Source: an uncultured Eubacterium sp. (lineage in GTDB: Bacteria; Bacillota; Clostridia; Lachnospirales; Lachnospiraceae). Taken from it: 39,496 nt of DNA. The notes below the pieces were generated by a model. The model had not been told where the DNA came from. It did not search any database and saw nothing but the letters and a program-made list of their open reading frames with translations. Position 1 is the first letter of the stretch, and every line of letters starts with the position of its first letter. Below, piece by piece: positions 6,181 to 37,815 of this stretch. A program made the translations under genes and the position numbers. The DNA lies in the NCBI GenBank assembly GCA_947385105.1, contig CANDJR010000002.1, forward strand, positions 1-39,496, in the 5' to 3' direction.

Positions 6181-7126
6181 TTTTATATACAGCCTGAATG
6201 TGACAGTTCCAATTTTCTTAGTGATGGTGCTAGGCTGGCTGCTTCGGCAGCGGGGCATGCTAAACGAAGGATTTGTCAGCGTAGCCAATAAATTTAATTT
6301 TCAGGTTACATTGCCATTTATGCTGTATCGGGATATTGCAGCTGTGGACATCCGGGCAGTGTTTGACTTAAACTATGTACTATTTTGTGCAGCTGCAACG
6401 ACCGTCTGCTTTTGGGGAGTTTGGGGCGCTGCAAAGCTATTTTTAAAGGATCACACAATGCGGGGCGCTTTTGTACAGGCTTCATTCCGCAGCAGTGCCG
6501 CTGTCATGGGACTGGCGTTTATCCAAAATATTTATGGCCAGTCTGCCATGGGGCCTTTGATGATTATCGGCGCAGTGCCGCTTTATAATATTTATTCGGT
6601 CATTGTACTGACATTTGAAGCAGATGCTCCAAAAGATACTGTAAAAGATACGGGAAAAATTAAAGAGGCATGTAAAAATATTGTAAAAAACCCGATTATT
6701 ATTTCCATTATCCTGGGTCTTTTGGCGGCTTACTTCCAGTTTCATTTGCCGGTTATGCTGCAGTCTACCGTAGACAGTGTCGCAAAGATGGCTACGCCAT
6801 TAGCATTGGTTGGCATGGGCGCAGGGTTTGAAGGGCAAAAAGCGCTGGCAAAGATGAAACCTACGTTATGGGCAGCATTTATTAAGCTGGTCGTTCAGGC
6901 AGCAGTTTGTTTGCCGATTGCAGTGGCAATGGGATTTGCTGGGGAAAAGCTGATTGCAATTGTCGTCATGCTGGCTGCGCCCGCAACACCAAGCTGTTAT
7001 ATTATGGCAAAAAATATGGGCAATGATGGTACGCTGACAGCCAGCATTGTGGTTATGACGACGCTTTTGGCAGCGTTTACACTAACAGGATGGATTTTTA
7101 TCCTCAAATCCCTGGCATTGATTTAA
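6173..7126 (+). CDS. AEC-family (auxin efflux carrier-like) transporter
   Basis: A 317-aa membrane protein with about ten hydrophobic segments in two five-helix repeats. It opens with VTVPIFLVMVLGWLLRQRGM and has the family's mid-protein ASFRSSAAVMGLAFIQNIYG and C-terminal VMLAAPATPSCYIMAKNMG. Bacterial AEC members export or exchange organic acids such as malate; the substrate here cannot be read from sequence. The ATG (6173) overlaps the folA stop, so the two genes are translationally coupled, an unusual pairing whose biological sense is unclear. Confidence 0.88.
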   Translation: MDNFIYSLNVTVPIFLVMVLGWLLRQRGMLNEGFVSVANKFNFQVTLPFMLYRDIAAVDIRAVFDLNYVLFCAAATTVCFWGVWGAAKLFLKDHTMRGAFVQASFRSSAAVMGLAFIQNIYGQSAMGPLMIIGAVPLYNIYSVIVLTFEADAPKDTVKDTGKIKEACKNIVKNPIIISIILGLLAAYFQFHLPVMLQSTVDSVAKMATPLALVGMGAGFEGQKALAKMKPTLWAAFIKLVVQAAVCLPIAVAMGFAGEKLIAIVVMLAAPATPSCYIMAKNMGNDGTLTASIVVMTTLLAAFTLTGWIFILKSLALI

Positions 7127-7244
7127 CGTAACGGAATTTTGCCCATTGAAAATTCGCTTTGCGAAGGGCCAAATCCCTCTTGGCAGAATTTATGCGTTCT
7201 TACGGGTTTTGCAGCAGGTGCAAAACCCTGGTGCGAACAGTAAA
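7127..7244 (-). repeat. Copy A of the dispersed structured repeat (inverted, degenerate)
   Basis: Read on the minus strand it matches copies B and C: TTTACTGTTCGCAC at the start, then a 10-bp perfect hairpin with a 5-nt loop (arms 7219-7228 and 7204-7213 in plus coordinates), then GTAAGAACGCATAAATTC. A second hairpin follows with inner stem TTCGC-AAA-GCGAA and then TTTTCAAT. The far terminal inverted repeat is missing or degraded where the element abuts the stop codon of the AEC gene. It would lie at the 3' end of the folA-AEC transcript. Confidence 0.7.
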
Positions 7245-17402: not shown

Positions 17403-18575
17403 ATGCAGGTGACAATTTCAGATTCAATCAAATATATCGGCGTAGATGACAGGGATATCGACTTATTTGAAAGTCAGTATGTTGTCCCAGATGGGGTAAC
17501 GTATAATTCTTATGTGATATTAGACGAAAAAACAGCATTGATGGATACAGTAGATCAAAGAGGGGCACAAGAATGGGAACAAAACCTCCAGGCAGCTTTA
17601 GGCGGGCGTAAACTGGATTATCTTGTTGTATCTCATCTGGAGCCAGATCATGCTGGGAGCATTGGCAGGCTTTTAGAGCTGTATCCGGATGTAAAACTGG
17701 TAGGGAATGCCAAAACTTTCCAGATGCTGCCGCAATTTTTCCCAGTTGACTTAGAAGGACATATGGTAACAGTAAAAGAAGGCGATGTGTTATCGCTTGG
17801 TACTCATACATTGAATTTTTATATGGCCCCAATGGTACATTGGCCAGAAGTTATGGTGACATATGAAAGCAGCGAAAAAATATTATTTTCAGCAGACGGC
17901 TTTGGCAAGTTTGGAGCAATGGATGCCAAAGATGATGAAGGCTGGGCTTGCGAAGCAAGAAGATATTATTTTAACATTGTCGGCAGGTATGGCGCTTCTG
18001 TACAGGCGCTTTTAAAAAAGGCAGCTAAGCTTGATATTGCTATGATCTGCCCGCTTCACGGCCCGATTTTAAAAGAAAACCTGGGCTACTATATTGGGTT
18101 ATATGATACATGGAGCAGCTACAACCCAGAGGATAAGGGCGTATTAATCGCATATGCGTCTATTCATGGCAATACGGCAAAGGCAGCACAAAAGCTGGCC
18201 GAAATGCTGCGTGAAAAAGGTGTAGAAAAGGTAGTAGTCAGTGATTTAGCCAGAGAAGATATGGCAGAGGTTGTTGAAGACGCTTTCCGATATGACAGAA
18301 TGGTATTGGCAGCAGCCAGCTATGACGGCGGTGTTTTCCCTTGTATGCAGGATTTCTTACACCATTTACAGAGTAAAGCATACCAAAAGCGTACCGTTGG
18401 TATTTTAGAAAATGGTTCCTGGGGCCCGACAGCAGGCAGGACGATGAAGTCTATCTTAGAAACAATGAAAAATATTACAGTTCTAGAACCAATGGTTACA
18501 ATAAAATCTACATTAAAAGAAGAAAATATGGCGGATTTTGAAGCATTGGCAGATGCAATCGCACAGGCGGACTAA
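17403..18575 (+). CDS. fprA: Flavodiiron protein (A-type flavoprotein, O2/NO reductase)
   Basis: Class A flavodiiron proteins reduce O2 to water (or NO to N2O) and protect anaerobes. The 390-aa protein has a metallo-beta-lactamase-like domain with the full diiron ligand set: His78, Glu80, Asp82 and His83 in HLEPDH, His146 in HWPEV, Asp165 in SADGFGKFG, His219 in CPLHGP. A flavodoxin domain follows (from about 245: VLIAYASIHGNTAKAAQKLA). There is no C-terminal rubredoxin, so electrons must come from a separate partner. AAAGGAG precedes ATG 17403. It is monocistronic; a 15-bp tandem repeat begins at its stop codon. Confidence 0.95.
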   Translation: MQVTISDSIKYIGVDDRDIDLFESQYVVPDGVTYNSYVILDEKTALMDTVDQRGAQEWEQNLQAALGGRKLDYLVVSHLEPDHAGSIGRLLELYPDVKLVGNAKTFQMLPQFFPVDLEGHMVTVKEGDVLSLGTHTLNFYMAPMVHWPEVMVTYESSEKILFSADGFGKFGAMDAKDDEGWACEARRYYFNIVGRYGASVQALLKKAAKLDIAMICPLHGPILKENLGYYIGLYDTWSSYNPEDKGVLIAYASIHGNTAKAAQKLAEMLREKGVEKVVVSDLAREDMAEVVEDAFRYDRMVLAAASYDGGVFPCMQDFLHHLQSKAYQKRTVGILENGSWGPTAGRTMKSILETMKNITVLEPMVTIKSTLKEENMADFEALADAIAQAD

Positions 18576-18647
18576 TTGATATTAATGTAATTGGTATTAA
18601 TGTAATTGGTATTAATGTAATTGATATGAATAAAATTGATATCAGAA
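18573..18647 (+). repeat. Five-copy 15-bp tandem repeat starting at the fprA stop codon
   Basis: Units start at 18573, 18588, 18603, 18618 and 18633. The second and third are identical (TAATTGGTATTAATG). The first unit begins exactly with the fprA TAA. The units differ from each other by only one to a few bases. Confidence 0.85.
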
Positions 18648-19123: not shown

Positions 19124-19212
19124 TTTGACAAAGAAACGAGATTTAACAAGGAAACAGGATTTAACAAGGAAACAGGATTTAACAAGGAAACGCGATTTAA
19201 CAAAGAAATACG
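19124..19212 (+). repeat. 18-bp tandem repeat, about five copies
   Basis: Units start at 19124, 19142, 19160, 19178 and 19196. The core is TTTAACAAGGAAACAGGA; the second and third are identical, and the first carries TTTGACA. It lies upstream of proB. Confidence 0.85.
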
Positions 19213-19258
19213 TTAAGCAAAGCATTATTATATTATGAAATACGTTTAAACAAAGAAA

Positions 19259-19384
19259 CATATTTTACTAGAAAATACAGAAAGCAAAAATACAAAGAAA
19301 CATATTTTACTAGAAAATACAGAAAGTAAAAATACAAAGAAACATATTTTACTAGAAAATACAGAAAGCAAAAATACAGAGAAA
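19259..19384 (+). repeat. 42-bp direct repeat, three copies
   Basis: Copies occupy 19259-19300, 19301-19342 and 19343-19384 and differ at one base each. Each begins CATATTTTACTAG and ends in AAAGAAA or AGAGAAA. The copies are contiguous with no spacers, so this is not a CRISPR array. It ends 61 nt before proB. Confidence 0.92.
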
Positions 19385-19445
19385 CTTTTTTATTTTGAGA
19401 AACACATCTTAGTTACGAGACAGAGGAATAGAGAGGACAAAAGTT

Positions 19446-21500: not shown

Positions 21501-21569
21501 AAAACAAATTCGTCTGTGCATGGGTGAAAAGAAGATAGTATGAAAGATGATCATATGAGGAGGGCAGCT

Positions 21570-22241
21570 GTGGGTAAAGTAACGATATTAGAAGAAACGA
21601 CAAAACATCCGATTCAGCTTATGGGACAGCGTGCCGGTGTGTGCTGGAATGCAGATATTTCAAATGCAGACAGAAATTATAAGCGCGGGCTGGAATGTCT
21701 GTCTAACGGTCACGGGCGGGTGATGGAGTATGTCAATGTAGAGATGGTATTAGAAGGTTATTCTGCCCGCGTTATCCGTGAATGGTATACACATATAGGA
21801 GGTTCTCCAACAAGACTGCAGGCAAGCACAAGATATATTAATTACGAGGATTTTTCTTATGTCATTCCGCATACCATAGCAAGTAATGAAGCAGCATGTG
21901 CCCGTTATGAAGCGGTTATGCGTGAAATCAGCATGGCGTGTGATTATTTAGAGAAAGAATGTGGCATACCAAGAGAGGATGCTGCGATGCTTCTTCCGCT
22001 TGGTATGCGTACAAAAGTTGTTGACAAGCGTAATTTGCGAAATCTGGCAGATATGAGCCGTCAACGGATGTGCAGCCGTGCATATCATGAATATCGGGCA
22101 TTGTTTTTTGATATTTGTCAGGCACTGGCAGCAGTATCAAACGAATGGGCGTATGTAGTGCAGCATTATTTTATGCCAAAATGTGAAGAACTTGGATATT
22201 GTCCGGAGCGGAAATCCTGCGGGAAAATGCCGCAAAGATAA
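21570..22241 (+). CDS. thyX: FAD-dependent thymidylate synthase
   Basis: Makes dTMP from dUMP with methylene-tetrahydrofolate and reduced FAD. The 223-aa protein aligns with Clostridia ThyX annotations: MGKVTILEETTKHPIQLMGQ at the start and GGSPTRLQASTRYINY (about residues 77-92) at the dUMP/FAD site. The canonical RHRxxSxxxxSxRY motif is altered: the first half reads REWYTHIGGS, but the S-x-R-Y end is kept. I chose GTG 21570 because AGGAGGG lies 5 nt upstream and it gives the family N-terminus; an ATG at 21540 has no such site. folA in the same window would be complementary. Confidence 0.85.
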   Translation: MGKVTILEETTKHPIQLMGQRAGVCWNADISNADRNYKRGLECLSNGHGRVMEYVNVEMVLEGYSARVIREWYTHIGGSPTRLQASTRYINYEDFSYVIPHTIASNEAACARYEAVMREISMACDYLEKECGIPREDAAMLLPLGMRTKVVDKRNLRNLADMSRQRMCSRAYHEYRALFFDICQALAAVSNEWAYVVQHYFMPKCEELGYCPERKSCGKMPQR

Positions 22242-22289
22242 GGTGTTTTGCCTGTATAACGGATGATTTGGCAGATAAAGGCAGATGGC

Positions 22290-22422
22290 GTTACTGTTCA
22301 CACAGGACTTTGCATTTACTGCAAAGTCCGTAAGAAAATGATTCAGAAGTGCTAAAATTCCATTGCCTAAGGCAATTTTAGATGAATTTTTGCATGTTGC
22401 TGGTCACGGAGTGAACAGGAAC
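22290..22422 (+). repeat. Copy B of the dispersed structured repeat, with 8-bp flanking direct repeats
   Basis: The element starts GTTACTGTTCAC (22290-22301) and ends GTGAACAGGAAC (22411-22422), an imperfect 12-bp terminal inverted repeat (11 of 12). CAGATGGC flanks it exactly on both sides (22282-22289 and 22423-22430), as expected of target-site duplication. Inside are a 10-bp perfect hairpin (22305-22314 with 22320-22329, loop TTTAC), then CGTAAGAAAATGATTCAGAA, then a second hairpin ATTGCC-TAA-GGCAAT followed by TTTT. It lies between thyX and the ilvB promoters. Confidence 0.85.
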
Positions 22423-22460
22423 CAGATGGCAGGAATCTTTCATAGGGCAAAAGTTTCAGC

Positions 22461-22533: not shown

Positions 22534-22565
22534 ACGGGCACTTGGCTAGAATAAAGGAGGATACC

Positions 22566-24284
22566 ATGGATATAGCAGGGAAGAAATTGTTTATCAAAGC
22601 AATGCGCGAAGAAGGCGTAGATACAATATTCGGATATCCGGGCGGCATGGTTACGGATTTATTTGATGAATTATATAAGCAGGAGGATATTCATGTCGTC
22701 TTACCAAGGCACGAGCAGGGGCTGATTTTTGAAGCAGAAGGCTATGCGAGGGCAACAGGAAAAGCAGGTGTCTGCCTTGTTACAAGCGGCCCTGGGGCGA
22801 CAAATATTATTACTGGGCTGGCAGATGCGCATTATGACAGCATCCCGCTTGTATGCATTACAGGACAGGTGCCGCTTAGCCTGATCGGAAACGATGCATT
22901 TCAGGAAGTAGATATAGTAGGTATGACGCGATCCGTAACCAAATATGGTGTGACGGTGCGCGAACGCAAAGACCTTGGGAAAATATTAAAAATGGCATTT
23001 CACATTGCTCAGACAGGGAAACCAGGCCCTGTATTAGTTGATATTCCAAAAGATATTCAGCTGGCGTCCGGCGACCCGGAATATCCAAGTGAAGTGCAGA
23101 TTCGTGGGTACAAACCGAACGAAGGCGTTCATATTGGTCAGTTAAAAAAGGCGTACCGTTTGTTAAAATCTGCAAAGCGGCCGTTGATTTTGGCTGGCGG
23201 CGGCATTAATGTCGGCCGGGCCAATGAACAGCTTTTGAAATTTGCGGAATTTACGAATATACCAGTTGTTACTACGATTATGGGCAAAGGCGCAATGCCG
23301 CCAAAGCATCCGCTGTATCTTGGCAATTCTGGTATGCATGGGCGGTATGCCTGCAATCAGGCGGTCAGTGAATGCGACGTGCTCTTTTCGATAGGAACTC
23401 GTTTTAACGACCGTATTACAGGTGATTTGAATGAATTTGCCCCACATGCAAAGATTGTCCATATTGACGTGGATACAGCAGCGATTTCAAGAAATGTAGC
23501 GGTTGATGTGCCGATCGTAGCAGACGCGAAGCTTGCGCTGGAGAAGCTTTGTGAGTGGGCAGAAAAGCAGGATACACAGGCATGGCAAGATCGGATCAAA
23601 AGCTGGGAAAGCGAACATCCGCTGCAGATGCGAAAAGACCGCGGTATGACTCCGCAGATGATTATGGAAGCAATTAATGCGGCCTATAAAGAAGCGATTA
23701 TTGTAACGGATGTCGGACAGCATCAGATGTGGGCGACACAATATTTGGAAATCGGCGGCAGCAAGCAGCTCATTACTTCCGGCGGATTAGGCTCTATGGG
23801 CTTTGGATTTCCGGCAGCTATTGGGGCCAAAATCGGCAAGCCGTACCAAAACGTCATTTGTATTACAGGAGATGGCGGGTTTCAGATGAACTTGCAGGAG
23901 ATGGCGACTGCAATATCACAAAAGACGCCGATTACGATCTGTTTGCTGAATAATTATTATCTTGGTATGGTTCGGCAGTTTCAGCAGCTGTTTTACGGCA
24001 AGCGCTATGCAGCTACTTGCCTGCGCAAACGCAAAGGATGCCCGGAAAACTGCAAAGGGCCGAACGAAGCATGTCCTCCATATGAACCAGACTTTATCAA
24101 ATTTGCAGAAAGCTATGGTGCGCATGGGATACGTGTTACGCAGGAAACGCAGATTCGGGATGCATTAGAAGAAGCACGTTCCCATACAGATGCGCCGACG
24201 CTCATTGAGTTTATGATTGCAACGGATGAGATTGTATTGCCAATGGTAAAAGGCGGGAATCCGATGAGTGAGATGATTTTGTAA
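22566..24284 (+). CDS. ilvB: Acetolactate synthase large (catalytic) subunit with a Cys-rich insert
   Basis: Condenses pyruvate with pyruvate or 2-oxobutyrate at the head of branched-chain amino acid synthesis. The 572-aa protein has the TPP-activating Glu50 in PRHEQGL, the FAD/central domain, and the TPP/Mg motif GDGGFQMN (from 435) with LLNNYYLGMV. After GMVRQFQQLFYGKRY comes an insert with Cys485, 492, 496 and 503 (spacing C-x6-C-x3-C-x6-C), which E. coli and plant enzymes lack. AAAGGAGG sets ATG 22566. The small subunit follows after 31 nt. Confidence 0.95.
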   Translation: MDIAGKKLFIKAMREEGVDTIFGYPGGMVTDLFDELYKQEDIHVVLPRHEQGLIFEAEGYARATGKAGVCLVTSGPGATNIITGLADAHYDSIPLVCITGQVPLSLIGNDAFQEVDIVGMTRSVTKYGVTVRERKDLGKILKMAFHIAQTGKPGPVLVDIPKDIQLASGDPEYPSEVQIRGYKPNEGVHIGQLKKAYRLLKSAKRPLILAGGGINVGRANEQLLKFAEFTNIPVVTTIMGKGAMPPKHPLYLGNSGMHGRYACNQAVSECDVLFSIGTRFNDRITGDLNEFAPHAKIVHIDVDTAAISRNVAVDVPIVADAKLALEKLCEWAEKQDTQAWQDRIKSWESEHPLQMRKDRGMTPQMIMEAINAAYKEAIIVTDVGQHQMWATQYLEIGGSKQLITSGGLGSMGFGFPAAIGAKIGKPYQNVICITGDGGFQMNLQEMATAISQKTPITICLLNNYYLGMVRQFQQLFYGKRYAATCLRKRKGCPENCKGPNEACPPYEPDFIKFAESYGAHGIRVTQETQIRDALEEARSHTDAPTLIEFMIATDEIVLPMVKGGNPMSEMIL

Positions 24285-24904: not shown

Positions 24905-25047
24905 GTTACTATTCACAGCCAGAAATGCGCATAAACTGCGCATTTCGTAAGAACATGATTCAGGAGTGAGGGGCGATTTTGCGAAGCAAATTTTAAATAT
25001 CGCCTCGAATTGTTGCTATGAGCAGCCTTTGGGCTGTGAATAGTAAC
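24905..25047 (+). repeat. Copy C of the dispersed structured repeat, with perfect 16-bp terminal inverted repeats
   Basis: GTTACTATTCACAGCC (24905-24920) is exactly complementary to GGCTGTGAATAGTAAC (25032-25047). The 8 bp outside each end, AAGCTGTG and AAGCTGCA, share six positions and may be a decayed target duplication. Inside are a perfect 10-bp hairpin (24922-24931 with 24937-24946, loop TAAAC), CGTAAGAACATGATTCAGGA and a second hairpin (TTTGC-GAA-GCAAA then TTTT, enclosed by GGCGAT/ATCGCC). The rest of 24814-25165 holds a direct repeat GAAACAGAAGCTG and AT-rich DNA with no clear promoter. Confidence 0.88.
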
Positions 25048-26992: not shown

Positions 26993-27733
26993 ATGTTACA
27001 TCAATTTGCAAGAACGGAATTACTGATAGGAGAAGATGGCCTGCAGCGGCTGAAGGATGCGCGTGTTGCCGTCTTTGGAATCGGCGGGGTTGGCAGTTAT
27101 GTCGTAGAGGCGCTTGCGCGCAGCGGGATTGGAACGTTGGATTTGATTGATCATGATAAAGTGAGCTTAACAAACATCAACCGCCAGATTATTGCAACTA
27201 TGAAAACAGTTGGACAATATAAGGTTACTGTTGCAAAAGAACGGATTCTGGATATTAACCCGAATGCAGTGGTGCATGCATATCGTACCTTTTATCTGCC
27301 GGATACAGCAGGACAATTTGATTTTACGAAGTATGACTATGTTGTAGACGCCATTGATACAGTTACTGGCAAGCTTGCATTAATCCAGCAGGCACAGGCA
27401 GCAGGTACGCCGATTATTAGTTCTATGGGAGCAGGAAATAAGACGGAACCATCCGCTTTTATGGTGGCAGATATTTATGAAACCTCTGTCTGTCCTTTGG
27501 CAAAAGTGATGAGGCGAGAATTGAAAAAACGAGGGGTAAAACAGCTCAAAGTCGTCTATTCGAAAGAAAAACCATTATCAATTAATGAGGCAGCTTGGAA
27601 CAAAGAGCTGCCAGCTGATGGTTCTGATTCTGGCAGTAAGCCTGTCCCTGGCAGTCATGCCTTTGTTCCGGCAGCTGCCGGATTAATTGCTGCAGGGGAA
27701 GTAGTAAAAGATTTACTATCTAACGATTCTTAA
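26993..27733 (+). CDS. tcdA: tRNA threonylcarbamoyladenosine dehydratase
   Basis: Cyclises t6A37 to ct6A37 in ANN-decoding tRNAs using ATP. The 246-aa E1-like (ThiF/HesA) protein begins HQFARTELLIGEDGLQRL and has the nucleotide-binding AVFGIGGVGSYVVEALARSG, LTNINRQI, YVVDAIDTVTGK, and VCPLAKVMRRELKKRGVKQ, characteristic of TcdA rather than ThiF. AGAGGAG precedes the ATG. The last gene of the cluster starting at 25166, it is followed from its stop codon by a six-copy 16-bp tandem repeat. Confidence 0.93.
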   Translation: MLHQFARTELLIGEDGLQRLKDARVAVFGIGGVGSYVVEALARSGIGTLDLIDHDKVSLTNINRQIIATMKTVGQYKVTVAKERILDINPNAVVHAYRTFYLPDTAGQFDFTKYDYVVDAIDTVTGKLALIQQAQAAGTPIISSMGAGNKTEPSAFMVADIYETSVCPLAKVMRRELKKRGVKQLKVVYSKEKPLSINEAAWNKELPADGSDSGSKPVPGSHAFVPAAAGLIAAGEVVKDLLSNDS

Positions 27734-27825
27734 AATAGTAACTTTTTAAAATAGTAACTTTTTAAGATACTAATTTTTTAAGATATTAATTTTTTAAGAT
27801 ACTAATTATTTAAAATAGTAACTTT
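27730..27825 (+). repeat. Six-copy 16-bp tandem repeat starting at the tcdA stop codon
   Basis: Six units in perfect 16-bp register begin at 27730, 27746, 27762, 27778, 27794 and 27810. The first, second and sixth are identical (TTAAAATAGTAACTTT); the others vary at two to four positions. The first unit contains the tcdA TAA (27731-27733). Confidence 0.92.
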
Positions 27826-27909
27826 ACAAATAAATAACGCAAGGAAATTATTTACAGCATATTTGCAGAAAAGTAGTTTATCCTAATTAGAAAAAAGGAG
27901 AAAACGAAA

Positions 27910-36760: not shown

Positions 36761-37087
36761 ATGAATCGATTAGATGATTTACATGGTTTGCTGTCTGAAA
36801 ATGTCGCAAAAGTAGGAGAGCTTTTGAGAAAAGATAGTGAGGCCGAAAAGAAAAAGAGCAAGACGGTATGGATTTTTGCAGCATTAGGAATTGTTGTAGT
36901 AGCAGCTGCAGCTATTTATGGAATTTACCGTTTCTTTGCCCCTGATTATCTGGAAGATTTCGAAGACGACTTTGACGATGATTTCGATGATGATTTCTTT
37001 GAAGATGAAGATGAAAAATCTGAAGAAGAATCTGAGAAAGAAGCAGACAAAGCAGATATCACGGATGATATGACAGAAGAAGATTAA
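36761..37087 (+). CDS. Small membrane protein with an extremely acidic C-terminal tail
   Basis: A 108-aa protein with an N-terminal amphipathic part (MNRLDDLHGLLSENVAKVGE), a basic patch KKKSK, one transmembrane helix (about 34-55, VWIFAALGIVVVAAAAIYGI), then YRFFAPDYLEDFEDDF and a tail of some 45 residues that is mostly Asp and Glu. The positive-inside rule places the acidic tail outside. It resembles small Lachnospiraceae proteins annotated as DUF4366, which I offer tentatively. ATG 36761 is 10 nt after AAAGGAG; ATG 36752 would be too close. Its 3' end forms a 17-bp tandem repeat. Confidence 0.75.
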   Translation: MNRLDDLHGLLSENVAKVGELLRKDSEAEKKKSKTVWIFAALGIVVVAAAAIYGIYRFFAPDYLEDFEDDFDDDFDDDFFEDEDEKSEEESEKEADKADITDDMTEED

Positions 37088-37162
37088 TTTTAAAAGAAGA
37101 TTAATTTCAAGAGAAGATTAATTTTAAAAGAAGATTAATTTCAAGAGAAGATTAATTAAAAA
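37078..37162 (+). repeat. Five-copy 17-bp tandem repeat starting at the stop of the acidic membrane protein
   Basis: Units begin at 37078, 37095, 37112, 37129 and 37146. They alternate between AGAAGATTAATTTTAAA and AGAAGATTAATTTCAAG, so the array also has a 34-bp higher-order period. The first unit contains the gene's terminal Glu-Asp-stop codons. Confidence 0.92.
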
Positions 37163-37201: not shown

Positions 37202-37248
37202 ATGTGGTGCGTATTGTAGAGGAACATGTGTCTGCTCCTAAGTCTGTG

Positions 37249-37535
37249 GTATTATGTGAGAAAGCCAGGGGAGAGGCATTATGCGAGAAAGCCAGGGGTG
37301 ACTGTCCGATAACTAAAAATCGTACAGACAAAACCACAAGAAATAGAAACAAATAATATAAATAACAACAAGATAATACGATCTGAAAATTTTAAAAAGG
37401 AGTTTTCGGACAGTCTGAGGGGGAGGTATTTAGCGAGAAAGCCAGAGATGGTGGCATTATGCGAGAAAACCAGGGGAGAGGCATTTAGCGAGAAAATCAG
37501 GGTTAGTGTAATTTAGCGAGAAAGCCAGGAAAGAG
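37249..37535 (+). repeat. 27-bp tandem repeat array (six copies) interrupted by an insertion
   Basis: The unit is close to GCATTATGCGAGAAAGCCAG followed by GGGAGAG. Copies start at 37249, 37276, 37426, 37454, 37481 and 37508; the second is split from the third by the element at 37299-37417. Copies share GCGAGAAA and CCAG best. It is not obviously coding on either strand. Confidence 0.88.
37299..37417 (+). mobile_element. MITE-like insertion with 15-bp terminal inverted repeats
   Basis: GACTGTCCGATAACT (37300-37314) and AGTTTTCGGACAGTC (37401-37415) are inverted repeats matching at 14 of 15 positions. AGGGG flanks the element on both sides (37294-37298 and 37418-37422). The interior is AT-rich and non-coding. 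The surrounding 27-bp array shows the empty-site sequence, confirming insertion. It is too short for a transposase, so it would be mobilised in trans by a related insertion sequence. Confidence 0.8.
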
Positions 37536-37815
37536 GGGAGTGGAACAGAGCAAGAGGAGAGAATCAGGAAGGGAAGTGAATAAAACGAGAATGGATGAGG
37601 GTGAGATGAAGATAGCAATGGATAAGAGTAAGGTTTGGATGTGAGTAAAATAGTATAAGAATACGAAAGAGAACAAGCAAGAGAGTGAGTACAAAAAGTA
37701 AGTAAGAATGCAAACACAAAATAGACATATAGAAATCATGCCAGAGTGTGTGAAGAAGCAAAGAAAAACGCTTATGCAAATAAAATGATATATTGGAAAG
37801 GGAAAGCAGAAAAGG
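37536..37815 (+). other. Purine-rich non-coding stretch before the methyltransferase gene
   Basis: The plus strand here is strongly A/G biased (for example GAGTGGAACAGAGCAAGAGG), with very few C residues for over 200 nt. No promoter with convincing boxes and no gene were found. Confidence 0.6.

Follow-up and report, generated by a model that had tools for sequence, protein, structure and literature searches.

A structured repeat between thyX and an ilvB-like gene in a Lachnospiraceae genome is a small non-autonomous transposon with a probable IS66-like partner

The 133-bp structured repeat located between thyX and an ilvB-like gene in the 39,496-nt stretch of DNA analyzed in the present study (hereafter, the window) raises the question of whether it arrived by transposition and, if so, which transposase moved it and what its folded interior is for. 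The element, designated copy B, reads GTTACTGTTCAC...GTGAACAGGAAC and is bounded directly on both sides by CAGATGGC (Table 1). An earlier note on this DNA had described perfect 8-bp direct repeats around a 133-bp element with inverted-repeat ends matching at 11 of 12 positions, and both descriptions were reproduced by direct sequence comparison and by end comparison, respectively; identical 8-mers at a spacing of 141 occur at only three of 39,347 window positions. The consensus of the 133-bp subfamily has perfect 12/12 ends, and the imperfect match in copy B is a decayed end. Most of the aligned subfamily copies are near the consensus, many of them one or two changes away, and copy B has 8. 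The window also contains tandem or clustered short repeats with periods of 15-55 bp that are unrelated to this family (18573-18647, 19124-19391, 27727-27841, 37078-37162, and 37246-37556).

Table 1. Copy B, its neighbors, and related copies. Coordinates here and in the text are positions in the window, except for loci labelled L and genomes labelled G.
Feature	Position	Strand	Remarks
Third copy, decayed	7097..7244	-	Degenerate right end, without target duplication
thyX (PF02511)	21540..22241	+	Upstream neighbor of copy B
Left 8-bp target-site duplication CAGATGGC	22282..22289	.	Direct sequence comparison
Structured MITE, copy B, 133 bp	22290..22422	+	8 differences from 133-bp subfamily consensus
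Left terminal inverted repeat GTTACTGTTCAC	22290..22301	+	End comparison
Hairpin P1, 10-bp stem, 5-nt loop	22305..22329	+	Fold prediction; compensatory changes
Hairpin P2, one-sided 7-8-nt bulge, apical triloop TAA (usually GNA)	22349..22395	+	Fold; compensatory changes
Right-end imperfect hairpin, 27 bp	22396..22422	+	Right terminal repeat lies opposite a copy of the end sequence
Right terminal inverted repeat, GTTCCTGTTCAC on minus strand	22411..22422	-	11/12 match to left end
Right 8-bp target-site duplication CAGATGGC	22423..22430	.	Direct sequence comparison
ilvB-like thiamine-pyrophosphate enzyme	22542..24284	+	Downstream neighbor of copy B
Copy A, diverged relative of copy B's family, 143 bp	24905..25047	+	Flanks AAGCTGTG / AAGCTGCA, 6/8

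The host assembly (3.08 Mb, 265 contigs, 94% complete) contains 92 exact matches to the internal core of the repeat and 335 matches to its end motif with at most one mismatch, against 0 and 17, respectively, for the reversed control patterns. The many copies are mostly 132-148 bp in length, contain no coding sequence, and have terminal inverted repeats with 12-bp consensus ends. Since the contigs fetched were chosen for carrying copies, they provide no unbiased copy density and no basis for extrapolation; this choice had no effect on the duplication test, in which 62 complete elements with different flanks, delimited solely by their ends, were taken from 0.77 Mb of fetched sequence and from extra loci. 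The 8-bp flanks were perfect at 21 of the 62 elements (shuffled expectation 0.32) and identical at 7 or more of 8 positions at 37 (0.64), and flank identity averaged 74% for a length of 8 against 27-39% for all other lengths between 2 and 14. Duplications of 8 bp also surround the repeat in sister species, and those with at least 7/8 identity were found at 15 of 23 loci that each represent a separate genus outside that of the host. This spike at 8 bp, genome-wide and in other species and genera, bears out the transposition with target duplication that the earlier note had proposed for copy B and leaves it all but proven; the repeat belongs to the MITEs, which are small non-autonomous transposons, and leaves an 8-bp footprint at new sites.

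When the flanks of the elements were joined, no interrupted gene was convincingly restored, and the insertions look intergenic; the family would insert mainly into intergenic DNA through an 8-bp staggered cut. Several irregular copies were observed. Tandem arrays with a unit of one element plus its short (~8- or 9-bp) duplication are present at L100:745-1065, L022:1705-1902, and L076:8083-8357, and hairpin P1 is swapped for a different terminal-repeat sequence (GGGGCTGTCGCA...TGCGACAGCCCC) at L064:14549-14753. Four solo 27-bp right-end hairpins, each with a perfect 8-bp duplication (L061:152, L065:13629, L079:1267-1278, and L080:1948-1959), could have originated from deletion between short direct repeats or from the transposition of the hairpin itself. 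In young copies of the 133-bp subfamily (3 changes or fewer), the duplications had 11 mismatches against approximately 3.2 predicted from the copies' own divergence, and mismatches showed no rise with element divergence in the subfamily, in a comparison that excluded duplications with more than 2 mismatches and used a fragmented assembly. Homogenization between copies is one possibility for this excess.

The interior of the MITE is composed of P1, a conserved GTAAGAA, the long bulged hairpin P2, and the right-end hairpin, whose copy of the end sequence can compete with the left end for pairing with the right end. Both-sided changes were found at 19 of 42 pairs in an alignment of 13 sequences, and both-sided compensatory changes at 31 of 39 pairs in one of 36 sequences that included 23 loci from other genera, although the counts from this larger alignment lean towards the model to which it was fitted. 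The covariation score of that alignment was 0.595, compared with 0.156 after shuffling and no more than 0.098 in slid controls, and the apex of P2 was C(GNA)G in 26 of its 36 rows. Because the stems stay paired through compensatory changes and the sequence of some loops and bulges is retained, we infer that selection acts on the conserved folded interior in single-stranded form, as either RNA or ssDNA. The stems contain 36 G-T versus 12 A-C cells, an excess that may be inflated by the fitting to the structure; both this excess and the P2 apex, for which the fitting calls for the same caution, hint that the element folds as a single strand in the given orientation. A search of the window and 17 related loci against Rfam yielded no family at the gathering threshold, apart from one neighboring tRNA.

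A fold of this type may chiefly represent a functional structured RNA or cis-acting element, such as a terminator or a processing or attenuation signal, that is kept by hosts, with past transposition explaining only its spread. The strength of the covariation, the conserved single-stranded segments, and the preference for the strand as read in the G-T excess, with its possible inflation, are consistent with this explanation; however, the orientation of the elements showed no bias relative to neighboring genes (14 same, 10 opposite), no fixed class of neighboring gene was noticed among the elements checked for neighbors, and the copy number is very high, and we consider the explanation rather unlikely. 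It is conceivable, and we suggest it only tentatively, that the MITE is instead a selfish element with the fold as cargo, the architecture of which has been selected across many genera as something needed for its spread, for example in a transposition step, and not as a service to the host.

Regarding the enzyme that moved the MITE, the earlier note presumed a transposase supplied elsewhere and proposed a search of the genome for an insertion sequence (IS) with the same ends. Autonomous IS66-like elements with these ends and 8-bp duplications were indeed found in Lachnospiraceae relatives; however, no IS with MITE-type ends was found in this genome, and a PF03050 and protein search of the assembly (94% complete, 265 contigs) detected no IS66-like transposase. 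The partner IS is 2.2-2.4 kb in length, has ends of the form GTTACT(G/T/A)TTCA(C/G), and encodes a DDE-type transposase of ~560 aa. In the same genus, one sister species has an intact copy, and five have decayed ones. Among the 13 genomes of the genus searched, a distant PF03050 match in G002 (L158) revealed an IS of 2314 bp between GTTACTTTTCACACCCACGCCAG (23 bp) and its exact reverse complement, with a 575-aa transposase and flanks that agree over 7 bp, not 8. Transposase pieces, mostly 46-80% identical, were identified by a protein search in G003, G005, G006, G007, and G009, and GTTACTTTTCAC ends are located beside transposase remnants in three of these five genomes. The same-genus IS ends differ from copy B at position 7, with T for G.

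Outside the genus, a relative of the transposase is present in 18 of 200 Lachnospiraceae genomes; the IS of G115 has the ends GTTACTGTTCACAC and an 8-bp duplication, GCCGGAAT. A scan of named genomes provided 78 loci, largely from Lachnospiraceae (Butyrivibrio, Blautia, Oribacterium, Roseburia, and others). Among 47 full-length IS relatives, 40 have an inverted repeat starting with GTTA or GTAA at 2.1-3.1 kb, and all of these except L308 read as the MITE-type end, many being exactly GTTACTGTTCACAC and most being located at 2.2-2.4 kb; perfect 8-bp duplications flank 15 of the 47, three of them at one shared site. In L294, the IS occupies the place of a MITE's right end, and the unusual variant GTTACTGTACAGAC is shared by the two.

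All five full transposases scanned matched PF03050 above its cut-off, and the four scanned with NCBIfam NF033517 scored 120-172 bits, below its 180-bit cut-off. In each of the 29 elements checked, the transposase is immediately preceded by a small ORF, coiled-coil-like by eye, and several of these small ORFs (loci L278-L331) have an N-terminal motif of the IKQ-DKR-GITYVYES type in common. ISDge4, a member of the ISBst12 group of the IS66 family that was seen to transpose, has the ends GTGACTACTCAGCA / GTAACTGCTCAGCA, makes an 8-bp duplication, and is described as having a single ORF, which encodes an IS66-family transposase of 449 aa (PMC12898284). The partner IS resembles it in its ends, its 8-bp duplication, and its IS66-type transposase, and differs in the length of the transposase (~536-581 aa) and in the small ORF just upstream. 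The PF03050 transposase and 8-bp duplication are both features of the IS66 family, whereas the presence of a second ORF departs from the single-ORF organization of the ISBst12 group. Because of the PF03050 match, the NCBIfam score below the cut-off, the ISDge4-like ends, and the extra small ORF, the partner IS is most readily placed in a divergent IS66 subgroup near, but not within, ISBst12. Canonical IS66 was rejected as the partner, being absent from this genome and lacking such ends at the other IS66 loci retrieved from relatives, and IS256/Mutator was rejected as the mover, with no match in this genome.

An IS66-like partner of the MITE is strongly supported by these sequence comparisons, and an IS66-like transposase would recognize the GTTACTGTTCAC ends of the MITE and have moved it in trans. 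The latest movement by such a transposase would date to the expansion of the 133-bp subfamily. A different transposase family that also makes 8-bp duplications, with similar ends by chance, appears improbable as the mover. In its favor, the IS and the MITE, present in 18 and 37 of 200 genomes, respectively, occur together in five, which is about the level expected by chance and would fit the loss of the transposase after the expansion and, equally, a different transposase, and no IS66-like transposase was found in this genome; against it, the combination of end sequence and duplication length recurs in the IS66-like group across many genomes, the end variant in L294 is common to the fused IS and MITE, and the IS256/Mutator family is without a match here.

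MITEs are usually regarded as decaying leftovers of insertion sequences. A classical origin of this type, with the MITE as an internal-deletion remnant of the IS and the fold as a by-product of inverted repeats, would account for the shared ends and duplications, and shortened remnants of the IS do exist. However, the outer ~12-14 bp are all that the IS and the MITE share, and a covariance model detected the MITE interior in none of the IS copies examined, its one strong match falling on the MITE that is fused to the L294 IS. Considering also that the interior is conserved across genera with compensatory changes, the MITE does not appear to be a simple deletion derivative of the partner IS, and the remnant origin is already disfavored, with a very small likelihood in our assessment.

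The earlier note also proposed a comparison with the orthologous thyX-ilvB interval of close relatives. This interval was not found, as thyX and ilvB do not lie side by side in the relatives examined: they are ~0.9 Mb apart in the near-closed genome G001, and both are present in the genus on different contigs in the others. No empty site was detected in the fetched sequence, in which joined flanks matched only elements themselves or tandem arrays. The lack of an empty site would be in keeping with an immobile repeat flanked by CAGATGGC through coincidence, a scenario that is statistically refuted by the sharp 8-bp signal over 62 sites and in other genera and retains a negligible probability.

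Taken together, we regard copy B, with a probability of approximately 85%, as one insertion of a MITE family that an IS66-like partner would move in trans and the fold of which is probably under selection. Under strict filters, with which weak copies may be missed, the covariance model detected the MITE in 37 of 200 genomes, representing 36 of 199 genera of the family Lachnospiraceae, and in a class-level sample of 291 genomes, matches were confined to members of Lachnospiraceae; viral contigs provided one exact match to the MITE core. In the open-licence literature, we found no paper that reports these end sequences or describes this repeat from Lachnospiraceae. Since a covarying fold is present in 36 of 199 sampled genera and only the ends are common with the IS, the family lends itself to testing whether selection acts on the structure of a mobile element without genes. 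The partner IS appears to represent an IS66 subgroup of Lachnospiraceae that has yet to be described, and the MITE is a repeat that fills intergenic regions and coincides with numerous contig breaks in gut bacteria.

Bacterial MITEs mobilized in trans have been described, including MITEPsy1 (PMC3189936) and QMITE2 of Coxiella (PMC10969869). They resemble the present MITE in being short and gene-free, with terminal inverted repeats, short target duplications, and ends like those of a full IS; the absence of a gene also separates the present MITE from ISDge4. The duplication of MITEPsy1 is 4 nt, in contrast to 8 bp here, and MITEPsy1 is attributed to ISPsy2, which is listed as 'IS5?' (PMC3189936). 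The cross-genus compensatory covariation of the interior found in the present MITE is not reported for MITEPsy1 or QMITE2 in the descriptions consulted. Another abundant interspersed repeat with features of a mobile element, bcr1, reaches up to 130 copies in the Bacillus cereus group (PMC6542083) and is, similar to the present MITE, confined to one bacterial group; however, its mobility has been tied to TTTAT repeats and a proposed mechanism resembling site-specific recombination (PMC6542083), in contrast to the 8-bp duplication and the IS66-like partner associated with the MITE in the present study.
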